The translations under genes were made by a program, and so were the position numbers. This document shows, in pieces, positions 5,745 to 31,335 of a stretch of DNA of 32,930 nt. The DNA lies in assembly GCA_029935455.1 (NCBI GenBank), contig JAOZKI010000024.1, positions 1 through 32,930 of the forward strand, written 5' to 3'. This stretch comes from Lysobacterales bacterium (GTDB lineage: Bacteria; Pseudomonadota; Gammaproteobacteria; Xanthomonadales; SZUA-36). The notes beneath the pieces were generated by a model. It was not told the DNA's origin. It worked only from the letters and a program-made list of their open reading frames with translations, and ran no database searches. The stretch's first letter is position 1. Every line of letters starts with the position of its first letter.

Positions 5745-7388
5745 GTGTATCTGAGCCATTTCGGCCTGTCCGAAGCGCCATTCTCCATTACGCCCGATCC
5801 CGGCTTTATTTTTCTGAGCGGCCGCCATCGGGAGGCCCTCGCGCACCTGCTTTACGGCGTGGGGCAGGGTGGTAGTGGTGGCTTTGTGCAACTGACGGGT
5901 GAGGTTGGCACGGGTAAGACCACCTTGTGCCGTGCGTTGCTCGAGCAGGTGCCAGCGGGAACCCGCATTGCACTGGTGCTCAATCCCCTGATGAACCCGG
6001 TGGAGATGCTGGCGGCAATCTGTGAGGAATTGGCCATCGACACAGAGGGGGCAGTCGGTAGCGCCAAACTGCTGGTAGACCGCCTCAATGCGTATCTCTT
6101 GACCGCTTACGAGGCCGGTGACCGGGTGGTACTGGTGATTGATGAGGCGCAGAACCTGGCGCCGGAAGCACTGGAGCAGGTGCGACTGCTGACCAACCTG
6201 GAGACCAGCAAGCAGAAATTGCTGCAAATTATTCTCTTGGGTCAGCCTGAGCTGCGTGATTTGCTGCAACGACAGAGTCTGCGCCAGCTGGCACAGCGCA
6301 TTACGGCGCGCTATCACCTGACGCCGTTGAACGCCGAGGAAACGCAACAGTATCTGGCCCATCGTATGTTGGTAGCCGGCGCGGCCAGAAACCCCTTTAC
6401 CCGCGCAGCGGGGAAGGCGCTCTATCAGCGCTCACAGGGTGTGCCGCGGCTGATTAACATTATCGCGGACCGGTCCTTGGTGGCGGCCTATGCGGCCGAG
6501 CGGGAGCGGGTTGATGCGCGCATGGTGCATGCGGCGGCGGATGAAGTTCAGCTGGGCGAGCCACGGGTGCGCGGCTGGTCCCAGCGCTGGTGGGCCAGCG
6601 CTGCGGCATTGCTATTGGTGGCCGGCGGCGCATGGGGATGGCACGCATGGCAAGCGCGCGACGCGGGCCGTGCCGCTCCAGGGGCGGCCATGACTGCGCC
6701 CAATGCTGTGGCTGCAGCGCCGCGACCCGAGCCCGCCCTTGAATCCAGTCCGCAGCCAGTGACGACGGTCCTGCCGGCGCTAGGAACGCTGGATCGCGCC
6801 TGGCTGGACGCGCAGGATCTGCGCGCTTTTCAGGGCCTGGCTGAAGCCTGGCAGCGCGGTGACGACGCGGCGCTGCTGGAAAGCAGCTGTCTGGGTCAGG
6901 AGGGTTTGGGCTTTGCCTGCGTGCGCGACCAGGGTAATTGGCAACGCATCGCTCAGCTGGGCCTGCCCGTGGTGCTGGTTTTACCCGGTGCCCCGGCTCA
7001 CCACGTGTTGGTGAGCGGCCTGCAGGATCAGCGCGTGCGGATCGGTTCCGGTGCCGCAGCGGAATGGATGGATCGTTCTGCGCTGGAGGCCCATTGGTTT
7101 GGCGAGTTTCTCGTCGCCTGGCCACAGGACCAGGACTGGCCGCAGGAGATTCGTCGTGGCGATCAAGGTGGTCCGGTCATGCGGGTGCTGGATCTGGCCA
7201 CGCGCGCTGAACCACCCTATGCAGGTGAAGCGGCCTTCGGCACTGACTTCGAACAGTGGTTAATGCGCTTTCAAACCCGCAACGGCCTGCATGCGGACGG
7301 TATCGTCGGCCCCAAGACCCTGCTCTACCTGATGCGTTTTTCAATCCAGGAACCCCGTCTGCTTACGGCGCAGGAGACCGTCCGCTAA
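5745..7388 (+). CDS. gspA: GspA/ExeA-type AAA ATPase with periplasmic peptidoglycan-binding domain
   Basis: The 547-aa protein has the architecture of ExeA/GspA, an inner-membrane ATPase that with GspB helps place the type II secretion secretin through the peptidoglycan. The cytoplasmic AAA domain starts with the family hallmark YLSHFGLSEAPFSITPDP. It has Walker A GEVGTGKT (52-59) and Walker B VVLVIDEA (128-135). A single membrane helix lies at about 283-301. The periplasmic part has a C39-peptidase-like region (about 350-475) and a C-terminal peptidoglycan-binding repeat (about 497-530, with DGIVGPKT). The start is GTG at 5745, 3 nt after the putA stop, so translation is probably coupled. 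The gspB-like gene follows 2 nt later. No other type II secretion genes are in the window, so the true client (secretin or other) is not shown. Confidence 0.88.
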   Translation: MYLSHFGLSEAPFSITPDPGFIFLSGRHREALAHLLYGVGQGGSGGFVQLTGEVGTGKTTLCRALLEQVPAGTRIALVLNPLMNPVEMLAAICEELAIDTEGAVGSAKLLVDRLNAYLLTAYEAGDRVVLVIDEAQNLAPEALEQVRLLTNLETSKQKLLQIILLGQPELRDLLQRQSLRQLAQRITARYHLTPLNAEETQQYLAHRMLVAGAARNPFTRAAGKALYQRSQGVPRLINIIADRSLVAAYAAERERVDARMVHAAADEVQLGEPRVRGWSQRWWASAAALLLVAGGAWGWHAWQARDAGRAAPGAAMTAPNAVAAAPRPEPALESSPQPVTTVLPALGTLDRAWLDAQDLRAFQGLAEAWQRGDDAALLESSCLGQEGLGFACVRDQGNWQRIAQLGLPVVLVLPGAPAHHVLVSGLQDQRVRIGSGAAAEWMDRSALEAHWFGEFLVAWPQDQDWPQEIRRGDQGGPVMRVLDLATRAEPPYAGEAAFGTDFEQWLMRFQTRNGLHADGIVGPKTLLYLMRFSIQEPRLLTAQETVR

Positions 7389-7390
7389 TC

Positions 7391-8170
7391 ATGTCTATCT
7401 TGCTTGAAGCATTGCGAAAATCGGAACAGCGTAAAACGCTGGGCGCTACTCCGGGCTTGCACACGCCGGAGCCACCCGTGGCTGGGCCGGAACCGGGCCG
7501 TTGGCAGCGTCCGCTGCGCTGGTCAGTGCTGGTGGTGCTCTTGCTCGGCGCTGCGCTGCTTCTGTGGCGATGGTGGCCGCTACCGGATACTGAAACCGTT
7601 GAGTCGGCGCAGCCAGCGGCGGAGCGACCGGCCGAGGCAGCGGCCCGGACGGTGGATGAGTCACCGGCGGCACCGGTGCGACAACCGCGCTCACCGGTGG
7701 AAGGCCTGAGTCATGATGAGCCGTTTGTGAAAGCGCAGCGGCCGAGCGCGGAGCCAAAATCACCGCCGGCTGCATCGGCCCCGCCGCCTGCGACCAAGGC
7801 AGTGGCCGAGACGTCAGCGCCGGAGGCCGAGTCCCCACCATCGCCCGCCAGCGCAGAGACGAAACCGACCATCGCGCCGCCGCGTCAGGCCGAGCGGACA
7901 GCGGCAAAACCGGCACCGGAGCAAAATGCCGAGGTGCGCAACGCTCCCATCAGTTTTTGGCAACTGCCAGAGAATCTGCGTACCCGCTTTCCGGCCGGCA
8001 AGATCAATGTGCTCGTTTATGCTGATGCGCCGGCCGATCGTTTCGTGGTCATGCAGGGCAAGCGTTATCTGGAGGGAGATGCGCTGGGTGAGGGCTTTAA
8101 GGTGCATCGTATCGAGCCGGGCCGGGTGGTGTTTTCACACCGCGCCTACCGCTTTTTCATCACCCAGTGA
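7391..8170 (+). CDS. gspB: GspB-type general secretion pathway accessory protein
   Basis: A 259-aa bitopic membrane protein. The N-terminus SILLEALRKSEQRK is the typical start of GspB/ExeB proteins, and a single membrane helix follows at about 43-62. A long Pro/Ala/Glu-rich periplasmic linker (about 65-190) leads to a compact C-terminal domain (about 190-259, with LPENLRTRFP, NVLVYA and HRAYRF) that matches the known T2SS-B domain. The ATG at 7391 is chosen because it begins the family N-terminus and lies 2 nt after the gspA stop; an open frame reaches back to 7256 inside gspA but that extension has no family support. GspA and GspB form one complex in species where they have been studied. Confidence 0.86.
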   Translation: MSILLEALRKSEQRKTLGATPGLHTPEPPVAGPEPGRWQRPLRWSVLVVLLLGAALLLWRWWPLPDTETVESAQPAAERPAEAAARTVDESPAAPVRQPRSPVEGLSHDEPFVKAQRPSAEPKSPPAASAPPPATKAVAETSAPEAESPPSPASAETKPTIAPPRQAERTAAKPAPEQNAEVRNAPISFWQLPENLRTRFPAGKINVLVYADAPADRFVVMQGKRYLEGDALGEGFKVHRIEPGRVVFSHRAYRFFITQ

Positions 8171-15751: not shown

Positions 15752-17899
15752 ATGAGCAGCGTCCAAGCCGAGGCCTCAGCAACTACCACGCAAGACATCC
15801 CATATCAGGAAGCATCCCTGGACATTTGGGACAAAAAATACCGACTCAAATCAAAAGCTGGCGACATTATTGATCAGGACATCAACGCGACCTACGAGCG
15901 TGTGGCGAAAGCCCTGTCGCAGGTAGAGAAGACCAAAAAAGAGCGTGATTACTGGCATGAGCGCTTTCTCTGGGCCCTGCGCCGCGGCGCCATTCCTGCC
16001 GGGCGCATCACGTCCAACGCGGGCGCCCGGGAGCACAAGCCAGCAACCTCCACCATTAATTGCACCGTATCCGGGACCATCAAGGACTCCATGAACGGCA
16101 TTCTGGACAAGGTGCATGAAGCGGGTCTGACGCTGAAAGCGGGCTGCGGTATCGGCTACGAGTTTTCGACGCTGCGGCCGAAAGGCGCCTATGTGTCTGG
16201 CGCCGGGGCCTACACCTCGGGCCCTCTGAGTTTCATGGATATCTACGACAAGATGTGTTTCACCGTGTCCTCGGCCGGCGGCCGACGTGGTGCCCAGATG
16301 GCGACCTTTGAGGTGGGCCATCCGGATGTGATGGAATTTATCCGCGCCAAGCGCGAAGACGGTCGTTTGCGGCAGTTCAACTGCTCCTTGCTGATCACTG
16401 ACGAGTTTATGGATGCGGTCGCCAAGGGTGAGGACTGGCCGCTGGCCTTTCCCGTCGCCGAGGCGGAAGCCGACGAGGTGAATCTGGATGACGATCAGCA
16501 GGTTCTGTGGCGCGAATGGCCCATGGATGATGACTACATCACCCGGGAAGATGGCCTGGTAGCCTGCAAAATCTTCAAGAAGATTCCCGCGCGGCGCGTG
16601 TGGGACATGATCATGGCCTCCACCTATGATTTCGCTGAGCCGGGCTTCATTCTTGTGGACCGCATCAACGAGATGAACAACAACTGGTTCTGTGAAAACA
16701 TCCGCGCCACCAACCCCTGCGGTGAACAGCCGCTACCACCCTATGGCGCATGCCTGCTGGGGTCGGTCAATTTGACGCGCTTCGTTGATGCACCGTTTAC
16801 GGACCAGGCCAGCTTTGACTGGGAAGCCTACCGGGAGGTGGTAAAGGTGTTCACGCGCATGCTGGACAACGTGGTGGAAATCAACGGCCTGCCGCTGGGC
16901 AAGCAGCGTGACGAAATCCAGCACAAGCGCCGCCATGGCATGGGCTTTCTGGGGCTGGGTTCCACCATGACCCTGTTGGGCATGAAATACGGTGCCGAGG
17001 ATTCCATCGAATTTACCGAGCGGATCGCCCGTGAAATGGCGCTGGCCGGCTGGGAAGAAGCGTTGGAACTGTCCCGCGAAAAAGGCCCGGCGCCCATTAT
17101 GGAAGAAGAATTCACGGTCACCGGCGATATGCTGCGCAAGCGGCCGGAAATGCGTAAAGACGGCTACAAGGCGGGGGACAAAATCCCGGGGCGCATACTG
17201 CATGCGCGCTACAGCCGCTATATGCAGCGCGTCGCGGAATATGAGCCGGAGCTGGTTAAGGCCCTGGAAGAGGAGGGGGCACGGTTTACGCACCACACCT
17301 CCATCGCGCCAACCGGCACCATCTCCCTGTCGCTGGCCAATAACGTGTCCAACGGTATTGAACCCAGTTTCGCGCATCACTACAGCCGCAACGTGATCCG
17401 GGAAGGCCGCAAGACCAAGGAGAAGGTTGAGGTTTATAGCTTTGAGCTGCTGGCCTACCGGCACATGGTGAATGATCAGGCCATGCCCTACGCGGAAGCG
17501 GAAGCTGCGCAGCTGCCGGACTACTTTATCGCGGCTGATGATATTACGCCGAAGCAGCACGTGGACATTCAGGCTGCAGCGCAGATCTGGGTCGATTCCA
17601 GTATTTCGAAGACTGCCAACGTGCCGACCGAATATCCCTATGAGGACTTTAAGGACATTTACACCTATGCCCATGGCAAAGGCCTGAAAGGCTGCACCAC
17701 CTTCCGCTTTAATCCGGAAGCCTTCCAGGGGGTGCTGGTGAAAGAGGATGATCTGGCCAATACCACCTACCGTTTTGTGCTCGAGGACGGTGAGGTGGTC
17801 GAGGTTAAGGGCAATGAGGAAATCGAATACGACGGCGAGATGCACACGGCCGCAAACCTGTTCGATGCGCTCAAAGAAGGTTACTACGGCAAGTTCTAG
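15752..17899 (+). CDS. nrdJa: Class II (adenosylcobalamin-dependent) ribonucleotide reductase, large part
   Basis: The 715-aa catalytic part of a split B12-dependent ribonucleotide reductase that makes deoxyribonucleotides without needing oxygen. STINCTVSG holds a redox cysteine (Cys104) of the active-site pair. LKAGCGIGYEFS and SSAGGRRGAQM belong to the family core. The NPCGEQPLPPYGACLLGSVN loop holds Asn321, the thiyl-radical Cys323 and Glu325. There is no N-terminal ATP-cone. The C-terminal redox/zinc module is missing from this polypeptide and is encoded by the next gene, as in the Pseudomonas aeruginosa NrdJa/NrdJb pair. The ATG at 15752 follows tandem NrdR boxes, so NrdR control is likely. 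The neighbours make this an independent two-gene operon ending at a terminator. Confidence 0.93.
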   Translation: MSSVQAEASATTTQDIPYQEASLDIWDKKYRLKSKAGDIIDQDINATYERVAKALSQVEKTKKERDYWHERFLWALRRGAIPAGRITSNAGAREHKPATSTINCTVSGTIKDSMNGILDKVHEAGLTLKAGCGIGYEFSTLRPKGAYVSGAGAYTSGPLSFMDIYDKMCFTVSSAGGRRGAQMATFEVGHPDVMEFIRAKREDGRLRQFNCSLLITDEFMDAVAKGEDWPLAFPVAEAEADEVNLDDDQQVLWREWPMDDDYITREDGLVACKIFKKIPARRVWDMIMASTYDFAEPGFILVDRINEMNNNWFCENIRATNPCGEQPLPPYGACLLGSVNLTRFVDAPFTDQASFDWEAYREVVKVFTRMLDNVVEINGLPLGKQRDEIQHKRRHGMGFLGLGSTMTLLGMKYGAEDSIEFTERIAREMALAGWEEALELSREKGPAPIMEEEFTVTGDMLRKRPEMRKDGYKAGDKIPGRILHARYSRYMQRVAEYEPELVKALEEEGARFTHHTSIAPTGTISLSLANNVSNGIEPSFAHHYSRNVIREGRKTKEKVEVYSFELLAYRHMVNDQAMPYAEAEAAQLPDYFIAADDITPKQHVDIQAAAQIWVDSSISKTANVPTEYPYEDFKDIYTYAHGKGLKGCTTFRFNPEAFQGVLVKEDDLANTTYRFVLEDGEVVEVKGNEEIEYDGEMHTAANLFDALKEGYYGKF

Positions 17900-17928
17900 C
17901 GCTCCGGCGTGCGAGCAGCCACCGCAGA

Positions 17929-17944
17929 GGCGCCCCCGGGCGCC
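17929..17944 (+). repeat. GC-rich hairpin between nrdJa and nrdJb
   Basis: GGCGCC-CCCG-GGCGCC lies in the 73-nt gap between the two reductase genes. There is no T-run, so it may tune the relative output or stability of the two parts of the message rather than end it. Confidence 0.4.
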
Positions 17945-17972
17945 CCGGTTACGGAATGAAAGAGAGAAGACT

Positions 17973-18704
17973 ATGTCCATCAAGATCGACAGCAAGATTG
18001 TAGGTTACGAAGTTGCCAAGCCTCAGGATGAGGCCGAGGCTGTAGAAACGCCGACTCCGGAAGTGCGTGAGACAGCGAAAGTTATTCGCATGACGGAACA
18101 GGTTCAGCGTCCGGAAGGCTATGAGGCGCTGGAGGGCTCTACCTACAAGATCAAAACGCCTCTGGATGATCACGCTATGTATGTGACCATCAACGATATC
18201 GTGCTCAATCCGGGTACGGAGCATGAGCAGCGGCGACCGTTTGAGATATTCATCAATTCCAAAAACATGGACCACTTTCAGTGGATTGTGGCGCTAACGC
18301 GGCTCATGTCAGCCGTGTTCCGCAAAGGCGGGGATGTCACTTTCCTGGCCGAGGAGCTGCAGGCCGTGTTCGATCCGAAAGGTGGTTATTTCAAACCGGG
18401 TGGCAAGTTCATGCCTTCGATCATCGCTGAAATCGGTGCGGTGATTGAACATCACCTGCAGAAAATTGGTCTGATGGAGAAAGAGCAGCTGTCCGAACAG
18501 CAGCAGCTCTTGCTCGACCAAAAGCGTGCCGAGGCCGAGGCTTCCGCGGAAAAAAAAAGCCTGACTGAAACAAACCAGGCGGACGGAGAGGACGCGGGTT
18601 ACCCGGCCTCGGCAACGCTTTGTCACAAATGCCACACGAAAGCAGTGGTAATCATGGATAACTGCGCCACCTGTCTGAGCTGTGGCTACAGCAAGTGCGG
18701 CTAG
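17973..18704 (+). CDS. nrdJb: Class II ribonucleotide reductase, C-terminal part (NrdJb)
   Basis: A 243-aa protein that corresponds to the C-terminal part of single-chain NrdJ. An N-terminal segment (about 1-60) is acidic and poorly ordered. The middle (about 55-168) has the family text YVTINDIVLN, RRPFEIFINSKNMDHFQWI and KGGYFKPGGKFMPS. A Gln/Glu-rich helical linker follows (about 168-205). The C-terminal cysteine cluster (Cys217, 220, 231, 234, 237 and 242; CxxC, CxxC, CGYSKC) is the zinc-binding and redox-relay tail that reduces the active-site disulfide. ATG 17973 is chosen over an upstream in-frame opening because it starts the family sequence, with an AGAGAG SD-like run before it. In Pseudomonas NrdJa needs NrdJb for activity. 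Confidence 0.92.
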   Translation: MSIKIDSKIVGYEVAKPQDEAEAVETPTPEVRETAKVIRMTEQVQRPEGYEALEGSTYKIKTPLDDHAMYVTINDIVLNPGTEHEQRRPFEIFINSKNMDHFQWIVALTRLMSAVFRKGGDVTFLAEELQAVFDPKGGYFKPGGKFMPSIIAEIGAVIEHHLQKIGLMEKEQLSEQQQLLLDQKRAEAEASAEKKSLTETNQADGEDAGYPASATLCHKCHTKAVVIMDNCATCLSCGYSKCG

Positions 18705-28353: not shown

Positions 28354-29238
28354 TTAGTGCGGGATCACGATATCGCCACCCTGCTTGGGAATGCGTTCCG
28401 AACGCCAGTTTCTTCTTGCCCATTGCCAGCGTTCGGCCAGCGTTGCATGCGCGGGTGGTGCATGTCCGAGAAAGCGCAGGGCGGCACCCAGTGCAGCCCG
28501 GGGCTCCTGCTGGCTGAGGGGGTCTGAGGCGTAGCGCTTGCCCAGTTTGCGGCCCTGTGGGTCCGTGACCAGCGGCAGATGAAGATAGCCCGTTTCCGGC
28601 AGGCCAAGCAGCGACTGCAGATGACGCTGGCGCGCCGTCGAGTCGAGCAGATCGCTGCCACGCACCACATCGGTGACGCCCTGGAAGGCATCGTCAACCA
28701 CTACGGCCAGTTGGTAGGCCGTGAGCCCATCGGCTCGACGCACCACAAAGTCACCACAGCTTCGCGTGAGGTTTTCCGATTGCGGGCCCTGCAGGCGATC
28801 GTCGAACGTGATGGGGGTGTCGTGGACCCGGGCGCGCAAGGCCCGGCCTTCACGTCCGGGCGGAAGGCCATGGCGACAGGTGCCCGCATAGGGCTCGCCG
28901 GAAGGGATTTCCGAGCGGGTACAGGCGCAGGGAAACAGCCAACCGGCCTGGTTTAGCTGTGCCAGGGCCTGCTCATAGGCTCGGCTGCGCGTGCTTTGCC
29001 ACAGCACATCACCATCCCACTGGAAGCCGAAGCGGCGTAGCTCAGCGAGCTGTGCCTCGGCCGCGCCCGGGACCGTTCGCGGTGGGTCAAGATCCTCGAT
29101 GCGTAACAACCAGTGGCCGTTGCGGCTGCGTGCTTCCAGGTAGCTGCCAACAGCGGCAATTAACGAGCCAAAATGCAGATCGCCGGTAGGCGAGGGCGCA
29201 AAGCGCCCCACATAAGCCGCTGCGCCAGCGCGAGCCAT
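28354..29238 (-). CDS. gluQ: Glutamyl-Q tRNA(Asp) synthetase
   Basis: GluQ (294 aa) is a truncated glutamyl-tRNA synthetase paralogue that puts glutamate on queuosine 34 of tRNA(Asp) rather than on the tRNA end. The HIGH-like motif is in RFAPSPTGDLHFGSL and the KMSK-like motif is KLGKR. The zinc site has CAC in CACTRSE and Cys in YAGTC. The anticodon-binding C-terminal domain of full synthetases is absent, as expected. It starts 3 nt after the stop of the FimX-like gene, so the two are probably translationally coupled. It is usually found after dksA, which is not the case here. Confidence 0.92.
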   Translation of the reverse strand: MARAGAAAYVGRFAPSPTGDLHFGSLIAAVGSYLEARSRNGHWLLRIEDLDPPRTVPGAAEAQLAELRRFGFQWDGDVLWQSTRSRAYEQALAQLNQAGWLFPCACTRSEIPSGEPYAGTCRHGLPPGREGRALRARVHDTPITFDDRLQGPQSENLTRSCGDFVVRRADGLTAYQLAVVVDDAFQGVTDVVRGSDLLDSTARQRHLQSLLGLPETGYLHLPLVTDPQGRKLGKRYASDPLSQQEPRAALGAALRFLGHAPPAHATLAERWQWARRNWRSERIPKQGGDIVIPH

Positions 29239-29241
29239 TGG

Positions 29242-31335
29242 CTACTGGCCGATGACCCGGGGTTCTTCCTGTAGAAAGTCGCCGGAAACCAGTTTTACGC
29301 CGCTCTGCCACAACAGCGCTAAATCTTGGGAGGTAGGGATGTTGCTGGCGATGGTCTGGATGTGCTGCTGGGACGCGCTGCTCACTACTGTGCGAATGTG
29401 GTCCAGGCGTTCCGGATGATCCTGCAGTTCGCCCGTGAGCGTGGATGACAGGGTGACGTATTGCAGCTCCAGGCACTCCAATAGCGCAAGCTGCTTGGGG
29501 TCATTTTCCAGCCCCGTGAGCGCGAATCCGATGCCGCTGCCAGCCAGTTCTTCCTGGACCCGACGAGCGGCTCGAGGTTGTTGTTGCGCCGCGCGTGCCG
29601 GCCACTGCAGCACTACCCGCTTGCCGGGGATACGCAGATCCTGCAGCGTACGCTGAAACCAGGTAGCAAAGCTGAAGTCCTGCAGCGAATTTCCGCTGAC
29701 CGCCAGCAATTGGCGTGCATCGCTGTCGGCCACGGCCCGCAGCAATCCCGGCAGGATATGCCGATCGATCTGGCTGGCCAGCTGTCCGCGTTCAGCAGCC
29801 GGCATAAAGCTGGCAGCGGCCAGGTCGCCATTTTCCTCATGCATGAAGTACCGATTCTCCACCAGACCCTCTGGTTCCCCTTCGAGGCTGCTGATGGAGC
29901 GCTGTACCGTGTAGAAGTCTTCGTTCTCCAGGGCGTAGCGAATGCGCGCTTGCCACTCACTCTCTTCGTCATCGGAGATGCCCGCGGCCAGTGCGGGCTT
30001 GTAGCGTTTCACCATATTGCCTTCCGCGCAGGCGAGCGCGCAGGCATGGCGTGCCTTTTCCAGACAGTCGTCTGCCTCATGGTGTTGTTGCCGGTCCAAA
30101 AGCAGCAGTCCCACGCTGCCAGTTTTTGGCAGGGGAAAGCCCGGTTGCTCAGGTCCCAGCTGCTCAATGCCGCTGCGAATCTTCTCCGCCAGACGGCGCA
30201 GGCTGGCTTTGTCTCGACGGTAGGCGAAGATGGCATAAGCCTGATCATTGATTCGCGCAATGTCGTCCTGTTCCTCCAGGCAGCTGAGTAACTCGTCAGC
30301 CGTCGCCTGCACGTAATGATCCATCTCTGTAATCGAAAGCTCACGCAGCTGCTCGATGCTGTCATCCAGCTCCAGGAAGTACACGGCGGCGCTTTCCTGT
30401 TCGGGAATGCTACCCAGGCGCTCATTGAGATGCTGCAGGAATGGACCGCGTCGGAACATGCCGGTCAGCGGGTCCAGCGGGCTCTCGCCGGACGTGGGCT
30501 TTGATTCCCTTGCCGGGGCGGTCCCTAGGGCTGCCGTTTCGGGCCCTGGGGCCGCTGCCGGTAGGGGGGCGGCGGCCTGCCGAGGCTGGTCTTCTACCAC
30601 CAGCAGCTGCACGCAGTTCTCGCCTTCAAAACGCACCGAGGCAAATTGGACCGTGGATTCGATCGGTTCGCCCTGCTGCGGAATGAATTTGAATGGTTGA
30701 GGTCCAGCGGGGAACTCGTCCCGTCCGAAAGCGCGAATCAGTGCCTTCAGGTCCGTATTGTCCTGCTGCAGGATCTCGAGTAGGGAAATACCCGCAAGCT
30801 GCTCCAGCGTGTCAACGCCAATCAGCTCCAGATAGGCGGCGTTGGCAGCGACATGCAAGCCTTCGTGCAGATAGGCTACCGGGTCCCGGGTGCTGTTGAG
30901 CAGCAGGCCCAGCCGTTCTTCCAGTTCTTCTTCTTGCTGCCGGTGCTGACTGGCTGACTGAGTTGCCTGATCCAGCGTTATCAGCTGCCTGACCAGCCCC
31001 GTCAGCTGTTCATCACGACCAATCAGAAAAGCGGGTGCGACGGCGCCGGCCTCCTGGAGTGCCGCTGACTCGGCGGCAGCGGCTTCGACCGCGAGAAAGA
31101 TGTTGGTCTGCTGGCACATCTGTGCTGCCACGGTAAGCGGCATGAGCGTCGATGCCATACTGGTATACAGGGCAAGCACCGGGCGGTGATCGGCCGCCAG
31201 TCGTTCTAGCTTGGCGACATTATCGGCATGCAAAACGCGAATTGAAATTCCTGCATTTCTTAGCGTGCTATTGATTTGCACGGCACGATCAGGCTGCGGG
31301 TCAATTACCAGTAGGAAGGCATGTCTGTCTTGCAT
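29242..31335 (-). CDS. fimX: FimX-like protein: REC-like, PAS, degenerate GGDEF and degenerate EAL domains
   Basis: A 697-aa cytosolic protein with the domain order of FimX, a c-di-GMP receptor for type IV pilus function in Pseudomonas and Xanthomonas. Residues about 1-125 form a response-regulator-like domain, about 140-250 a PAS domain (NSTRDPVAYLHEGLHVAANA), about 251-285 a Pro/Ala linker, about 286-450 a GGDEF-fold domain (LDPLTGMFRRGPFLQHL) and about 460-697 an EAL-fold domain ending in SGVKLVSGDFLQEEP. GGDEF is replaced by RINDQ (361-365). The EAL motif position reads about RYF (495-497), and the usual catalytic Glu, Asn, Asp and Lys segments are not recognisable. Enzyme activity is therefore unlikely. 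The frame opens at 31563, but the upstream 76 codons are unlike any domain; ATG 31335 is preferred. Confidence 0.72.
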   Translation of the reverse strand: MQDRHAFLLVIDPQPDRAVQINSTLRNAGISIRVLHADNVAKLERLAADHRPVLALYTSMASTLMPLTVAAQMCQQTNIFLAVEAAAAESAALQEAGAVAPAFLIGRDEQLTGLVRQLITLDQATQSASQHRQQEEELEERLGLLLNSTRDPVAYLHEGLHVAANAAYLELIGVDTLEQLAGISLLEILQQDNTDLKALIRAFGRDEFPAGPQPFKFIPQQGEPIESTVQFASVRFEGENCVQLLVVEDQPRQAAAPLPAAAPGPETAALGTAPARESKPTSGESPLDPLTGMFRRGPFLQHLNERLGSIPEQESAAVYFLELDDSIEQLRELSITEMDHYVQATADELLSCLEEQDDIARINDQAYAIFAYRRDKASLRRLAEKIRSGIEQLGPEQPGFPLPKTGSVGLLLLDRQQHHEADDCLEKARHACALACAEGNMVKRYKPALAAGISDDEESEWQARIRYALENEDFYTVQRSISSLEGEPEGLVENRYFMHEENGDLAAASFMPAAERGQLASQIDRHILPGLLRAVADSDARQLLAVSGNSLQDFSFATWFQRTLQDLRIPGKRVVLQWPARAAQQQPRAARRVQEELAGSGIGFALTGLENDPKQLALLECLELQYVTLSSTLTGELQDHPERLDHIRTVVSSASQQHIQTIASNIPTSQDLALLWQSGVKLVSGDFLQEEPRVIGQ

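Follow-up and report, generated by a model that had tools for sequence, protein, structure and literature searches.

The window analysed here is the whole stretch of 32,930 nucleotides from a Lysobacterales bacterium (GenBank assembly GCA_029935455.1, contig JAOZKI010000024.1, positions 1 to 32,930, forward strand). It carries fimX between flanking genes that we take to be efp (elongation factor P) on one side and gluQ and accA on the other. The same gene order was found at the other loci of family f1, as far as those loci extend. Family f1 comprises 39 genomes of 14 genera, all Lysobacterales/Xanthomonadales MAGs, of which 22 combine a completeness of 90% or more with a contamination of 5% or less. 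The features of the locus are the following:

28354..29238, minus strand: gluQ-like gene, conserved downstream neighbour of fimX (synteny)
29242..31335, minus strand: fimX, intact uninterrupted frame of 697 codons (697 aa) plus stop
29269..29946, minus strand: EAL domain, residues 464-689 (Pfam, E 3e-26)
30019..30477, minus strand: degenerate GGDEF domain, residues 287-439 (Pfam, E 7e-9)
30241..30255, minus strand: RINDQ (residues 361-365) in the place of the GGDEF motif (alignment)
30592..30915, minus strand: PAS domain (around residues 141-248) carrying a conserved HEGLH-type motif; the Pfam PAS score of 20.8 bits falls short of the cut-off (22.6)
30961..31335, minus strand: REC region, delimited by us as residues 1-125 (no Pfam hit; domain order as in the FimX literature, available part of PMC8389850)
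31590..32159, plus strand: efp, conserved divergent neighbour of fimX (synteny)

The fimX frame stays open further upstream, to 31563, and the nearest homologue begins at the place of 31335. Pfam matches were above the cut-offs for GGDEF and EAL, below threshold for PAS (at 144-246) and lacking for REC. The top PDB sequence matches of the protein were FimX GGDEF-EAL chains (7lkq, E 5e-22; 4j40, E 3.5e-21), and most FimX proteins of the family aligned to it from about residue 7 through to the end. The closest named relative, at 87% identity, is the MAG Lysobacterales bacterium DT_121 (L031), which is probably the same genome as G003 in our set, as their figures are identical. In a tree of FimX proteins from the order, f1 formed one clade (support 1.0) adjoining family f9 (0.92), and efp adjoined fimX in 16 of 20 loci from across the order (L093-L112; the exceptions were L097, L098, L099 and L103). 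Judged from sequence, the window gene is a true FimX orthologue. A first-pass annotation had named it FimX-like, and the PDB matches, the tree and the locus position bear this out; the strings RINDQ, VVLQWPA, LTGLEND and GDFLQEEP that it quoted are all present in the protein. No second fimX match was found in the genome of the window. An AlphaFold2 model of the EAL domain, computed from a two-row alignment of the window protein and L031, reached a pLDDT of 40 and a pTM of 0.26 and was not used.

Two other places in the window were recorded. At 15752-18704 (plus strand), the end of a ribonucleotide reductase barrel gene (15752-17899) overlaps by 152 bases with a TSCPD-domain frame (17748-18704) that is read in a different phase; the pair is possibly a split or frameshifted gene. 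At 5745-8170 (plus strand), an AAA plus peptidoglycan-binding protein, presumably GspA/ExeA-like, is followed by a T2SSB-domain protein, apart from the main secretion operon.

The FimX proteins of the family were aligned with MAFFT together with order relatives and intermediates and two solved FimX chains. Ligand and metal contacts of the EAL domain were taken from the available text of PMC3527489 and are given in P. aeruginosa numbering. The positions of interest in the window are the following:

29953..29955, minus strand: W461, equivalent to X. citri Trp445, which the available part of PMC11656802 lists among the PilZ contacts; Trp in 35 of 35 family FimX
29851..29859, minus strand: E493-N494-R495 facing Glu475-Val476-Leu477 (EAL/EVL motif), Glu kept
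29845..29847, minus strand: F497 in place of the c-di-GMP contact Arg479
29764..29766, minus strand: D524, the contact Asp507, kept
29452..29454, minus strand: T628 in place of Lys616
29341..29343, minus strand: N665 in place of the guanine-stacking Phe652

The contacts kept in the window protein are Glu475 (E493), Asp507 (D524) and Gln565 (Q577). Those replaced are Leu477 (R495), Arg479 (F497), Gln596 (G608), Lys616 (T628), Phe652 (N665), Glu654 (P667) and Tyr673 (D686), and two further positions are changed as well (His533 to A545, Ser595 to T607). The contacts are therefore not intact, which leaves standing the earlier suspicion of an altered c-di-GMP site. The statement that all signature residues are lost went too far, as E493, D524 and Q577 are kept. 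The EAL segment had been called unrecognisable; Pfam recognises it, and its ENR aligns to Glu475-Val476-Leu477. The X. citri FimX chain itself reads QAF for EAL and has Asp for Tyr673, with Arg and Phe kept. Since that protein binds c-di-GMP despite QAF and Asp, missing EAL letters alone are uninformative, and the telling losses are those of Arg479 and Phe652.

The degenerate GGDEF motif had also been remarked on in the first-pass annotation. GG[DE]EF was found in none of the 67 aligned FimX proteins, the two PDB chains included; degeneration of this motif is the usual state in FimX. At the ExLxR-type c-di-GMP contact motif (named in the available part of PMC10333796), the window protein reads ENRYF. 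The full set of residues expected of a catalytic DGC or EAL PDE is lacking, with RINDQ in place of the GGDEF motif, no DDFG-like segment and Thr for Lys616. An alignment error behind the missing Arg479 was considered and rejected, because the position opposite Arg holds Phe in MAFFT and, as we read them, Met, Tyr and Met in three phmmer alignments, never Arg; intermediates reading EAFVYM, EAFTYL and ETCSYL fix the register at this position. A substitute c-di-GMP site of the RxxD inhibitory type in the GGDEF domain was also rejected, being absent from the window protein and present in one of 66 FimX proteins (G050; G025 left out).

The genome of the window (2.63 Mb, completeness 100, a draft of 130 contigs) encodes a single GGDEF domain and a single EAL domain, both of them in FimX, and no HD_5 domain. 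Across f1, GGDEF (PF00990) was detected in 35 of the 39 genomes, exactly once in 34 and twice in G061, and in none of G006, G007, G019 and G020; EAL was detected in 36 of 39, once in each. By coordinates these matches sit on FimX, except for the extra GGDEF of G061. The lowest five GGDEF scores of the family all belong to the genus of the window. HD_5, the marker of HD-GYP, gave one weak partial match, in G062, among the 39 genomes. A single-sequence search missed FimX in three of 61 genomes (G006, G019 and G020), and a profile search returned only weak matches in G019 and G020 and none in G006, which is 92% complete and has PilZ. Within the scope of PF00990, no c-di-GMP synthesis seems evident in f1. 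The extra GGDEF of G061 belongs to a 1742-aa kinase-AAA-GAF-GGDEF protein (L157:5346-10574) on a 12.5-kb contig (C77) of a MAG with 6% contamination; the protein is possibly foreign.

Neither Arg479 nor Phe652 was present in any of the 35 f1 FimX proteins examined. Their loss is therefore a property of the family; the first-pass annotation had implied one odd copy. Several other pocket residues were well conserved in the same proteins (E475 and D507 in 35/35, Q565 in 34/35, K616 in 29/35), and the position of Asn476 held N in 29 of 35. A pocket that was simply abandoned would have no need to conserve E475, D507, Q565 and K616 in this way.

As an order-wide control, 299 genomes were scanned, 260 of them outside f1, with about the best 11 GGDEF candidates per genome scored. 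At least four GGDEF matches were found in 251 of the 260; the remaining nine, with zero to two matches, all belong to family f9. Single matches occurred in G054, G107, G135 and G139, and two in G167 (the best at 1.2e-45); G135 has a separate EAL-type match besides FimX. Four small f9 genomes of 1.3-2.1 Mb (G115, G190, G207 and G219) had no GGDEF match and no FimX match better than 1e-4. FimX can thus disappear together with the c-di-GMP genes, which for the most part did not happen in f1.

The GGDEF-rich FimX proteins used for comparison came from 25 genomes fetched out of the 251, and G061 and G167 were placed in the low-GGDEF group despite one further GGDEF each. Outside f1, Arg479 was present in none of the five low-GGDEF f9 FimX proteins (one or two GGDEF matches), where the position holds Cys in four and Lys in G135, and in 23 of 25 GGDEF-rich ones (6/6 in f9 and 17/19 elsewhere). 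The two GGDEF-rich exceptions are G048 (Leu; locus L103) and G041 (Ala; locus L109). Phe652 was found in 0/5 low-GGDEF f9, 0/6 GGDEF-rich f9 and 12/19 other GGDEF-rich proteins, with His in five. Pocket change is thus not strictly tied to DGC loss, as G048 and G041 lack Arg479 and GGDEF-rich f9 lacks Phe652; the latter also indicates that the stacking residue could go first. In the FimX tree the low-GGDEF f9 members are split by a node with a support of 0.04. From these patterns we claim at least two independent losses, perhaps three, related sequences not being independent.

Conservation was compared between the contact positions and all other EAL columns. Among GGDEF-rich FimX proteins outside f9 (n=19), the twelve contacts of PMC3527489 (available text) scored 0.76 against 0.59 (permutation P 0.003), and the six c-di-GMP contacts alone 0.77 against 0.59 (P 0.024). 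The same contacts in f1 scored 0.66 against 0.61 for the twelve (P 0.20) and 0.62 against 0.61 for the six (P 0.46). Adding the six GGDEF-rich f9 proteins (n=25) weakened the contrast of the rich group (twelve contacts, P 0.015; six, P 0.025). An alternative set of eleven columns gave 0.80 against 0.59 in GGDEF-rich FimX (P 0.0007) and 0.65 against 0.61 in f1 (P 0.26), but this set omitted 533 and 595 and included 671, a position that is not ligand-binding in P. aeruginosa FimX according to the available text of PMC3527489, and the twelve-contact figures are preferred. The PAS motif was alike in f1 and GGDEF-rich FimX in the rows compared.

Between the window and G003, its nearest relative, dN/dS was 0.10 overall and 0.045 for the EAL domain, and across the eight f1 pairs that were computable of nine run, EAL values ranged from 0.035 to 0.138 (Nei-Gojobori method; dS is saturated in several pairs, and two pairs share G030). 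The lowest pairwise identity within f1 FimX was 26% (34 sequences), so the present state of the protein has lasted through deep divergence. These values indicate that f1 FimX is under purifying selection and that the gene is not decaying. A relic kept by chance might be suspected from the loss of the main contacts and from the low GGDEF scores in the genus of the window; it is extremely unlikely, given the conserved synteny, the retention of the gene across that divergence and the lack of an internal stop among the f1 matches listed, and we rejected it on dN/dS and synteny.

The first-pass annotation had proposed a search of the genome for pil genes and further FimX copies. The genome of the window has pilZ, two pilT-family genes and an operon with pilM and pilQ; this operon also contains three genes without a family match, which are named pilN, pilO and pilP by their position. 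A PF00437 search, run on this 130-contig draft only, detected no pilB, and the sole full-length T2SSE (GspE/PilB-type) ATPase is GspE in the type II secretion operon (L148, contig C94). Between that operon and a phosphoribosylformylglycinamidine synthase gene lies a gene for an exosortase H-associated membrane protein (L148:9579-10190, minus strand). The PilZ protein of the genome matches X. citri PilZ at 4e-43 and ends in THTM, and the gene ahead of pilZ is, we assume, holB-like.

PilZ was found in 33 of the 39 f1 genomes, one apiece, with no match in G003, G007, G018, G020, G030 and G062; G003 (99% complete) and G018 (96%) have FimX with PilZ undetected. Among 30 family PilZ proteins examined of the 33 found, Ile10, Phe28, Phe49, Leu51 and Trp69 are invariant, and Met117 is present in 29, the thirtieth sequence running into masked sequence. 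In X. citri PilZ, Ile10, Phe49 and Leu51 are needed for FimX binding and Trp69 for PilB binding (available part of PMC8389850). On the FimX side, M488 and A493, named as X. citri PilZ contacts in the available part of PMC11656802, are not conserved, GGDEF-rich genomes included, and position 487, named there as a Met contact, is Glu in this numbering.

Together, these results suggest that FimX persists in f1 without c-di-GMP and works with PilZ on type IV pili; we regard this reading as somewhat probable. It builds on orthology, loss of the main contacts, the family-wide lack of other DGC and PDE domains (the listed exceptions apart), purifying selection and conserved PilZ surfaces, all of which are seen in the sequences. 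The f1 family would have lost both synthesis and breakdown of c-di-GMP, and FimX would have dropped ligand control while retaining its protein contacts. The EAL barrel, its mouth altered, may be locked permanently in the PilZ-binding form, so that FimX would promote pilus assembly with any leftover regulation passing through the conserved PAS or REC domain. Accepting this means inferring that c-di-GMP is absent from the cell and is not bound, that a FimX-PilZ-PilB complex forms and that PAS supplies an input. Against it stand the undetected pilB and the fact that PilZ and FimX are not always detected together (G003, G018 and G006), besides the pocket residues still conserved in f1, the loss of Arg479 or Phe652 in some GGDEF-rich genomes, the variable PilZ contacts M488 and A493 and the seeming stabilisation of X. 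citri complexes by c-di-GMP. The pure-scaffold role suggested by the first-pass annotation fits the conserved PilZ partner surface and an EAL domain under purifying selection.

A change of ligand in the barrel, in which E475, N476, D507, Q565, K616 and E652 hold metal, phosphate or another nucleotide, is unlikely. It would account for E475 and D507 being invariant in f1, for the near-invariance of Q565 and for the frequent Asn at 476. Moreover, 25 of 34 sequences have both Lys616 and Glu652, and Thr or Arg in place of this Lys is paired with Asn, Asp or Glu. However, the contact positions in f1, taken together, do not exceed the remaining EAL columns in conservation, by the permutation values given above, and in the genus of the window Lys616 is changed in 6/6 and Glu652 in 5/6. 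The Lys-Glu pair could also be an internal salt bridge filling the empty site, shared by descent among related sequences. Quite unlikely is that weak c-di-GMP binding persists, with the molecule supplied by a cyclase outside PF00990 (such as a CD-NTase), by a gene that the MAGs do not cover or by uptake from neighbours. X. citri FimX does bind with QAF, Asp507 and Gln565 are kept in the window protein, MAGs are incomplete, and strong GGDEF matches occur outside FimX in G061 of f1 and as a second match in G167 of f9. Nevertheless, the residues missing from 35/35 family proteins, Arg479 and Phe652, are those kept in both the X. citri and P. aeruginosa chains, and further GGDEF, EAL and HD-GYP domains are missing repeatedly over 39 genomes, the named exceptions apart.

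A third alternative concerns the partner. After loss of pilB, FimX and PilZ might have turned to a different target such as the type II secretion ATPase, as the genome of the window has gspE, two pilT-family genes, pilM, pilQ and pilZ with pilB undetected. We hold this to be very unlikely, because the PilB-binding residues of PilZ (Trp69, Phe28 and the C-terminal Met) vary little or not at all among the 30 family proteins, that of this genome included, and this speaks for PilB having remained the partner; the PF00437 search, moreover, covered one draft genome only.

For the wider statement, the chances seem about even: f1 would have lost c-di-GMP signalling and kept FimX under strong selection, the barrel being either a self-locked PilZ-binding module or a receptor for another ligand, and at least one further lineage (f9) would have taken the same course independently. 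If so, FimX would not depend on c-di-GMP for its core job in type IV pilus extension, and the messenger would be an added control. The f1 case suggests how the receptor of a second messenger may survive after the messenger itself is gone. A FimX lineage lacking c-di-GMP is not described in the open-licence papers searched, including the available parts of PMC12533971, PMC8389850, PMC11656802, PMC3527489, PMC5595344, PMC10333796 and PMC4823724.

Among known systems, E. coli makes c-di-GMP. Its CsrD resembles the window protein in having a degenerate GGDEF-EAL pair and in being reportedly independent of c-di-GMP (available part of PMC10333796), although it acts in another pathway, the decay of the RNAs CsrB and CsrC. 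For XOC_2393, another GGDEF-EAL protein, a c-di-GMP-independent action on pili is speculation only in the available part of PMC4823724.

The need of FimX for c-di-GMP is an open disagreement between P. aeruginosa and X. citri. P. aeruginosa FimX must bind c-di-GMP for PilB binding and pilus assembly (PMC5595344, available part). It probably has the same domains as the window protein, and the equivalents of its Glu475, Asp507 and Gln565 are kept there, whereas its Leu477, Arg479, Gln596, Lys616, Phe652 and Glu654 are replaced (contacts from the available text of PMC3527489). In X. citri, PilZ joins FimX to PilB, and ATP hydrolysis is more than twice as high in the ternary complex, on which added c-di-GMP had no effect according to the available part of the review PMC11656802; the binary complexes are seemingly stabilised by c-di-GMP (PMC8389850, available part). 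In keeping FimX, and mostly PilZ, without visible c-di-GMP synthesis, f1 is a natural experiment on the ligand need of FimX and offers proteins that could directly serve as candidates for a ligand-free form.

X. citri FimX (7lkq, 4fou; available part of PMC8389850) is like the window protein in its dead GGDEF motif, its retained Trp445, a PilZ partner that agrees in the key surface residues and, probably, its REC-PAS-dGGDEF-EAL order. It differs in keeping Arg481 (Arg479) and Phe654 (Phe652) and in binding c-di-GMP, whereas the window protein has both residues replaced and its genome, in contrast to X. citri, holds no other GGDEF/EAL protein. The f1 system may represent the X. citri arrangement carried to its end, with no ligand control and with the partner contacts retained.
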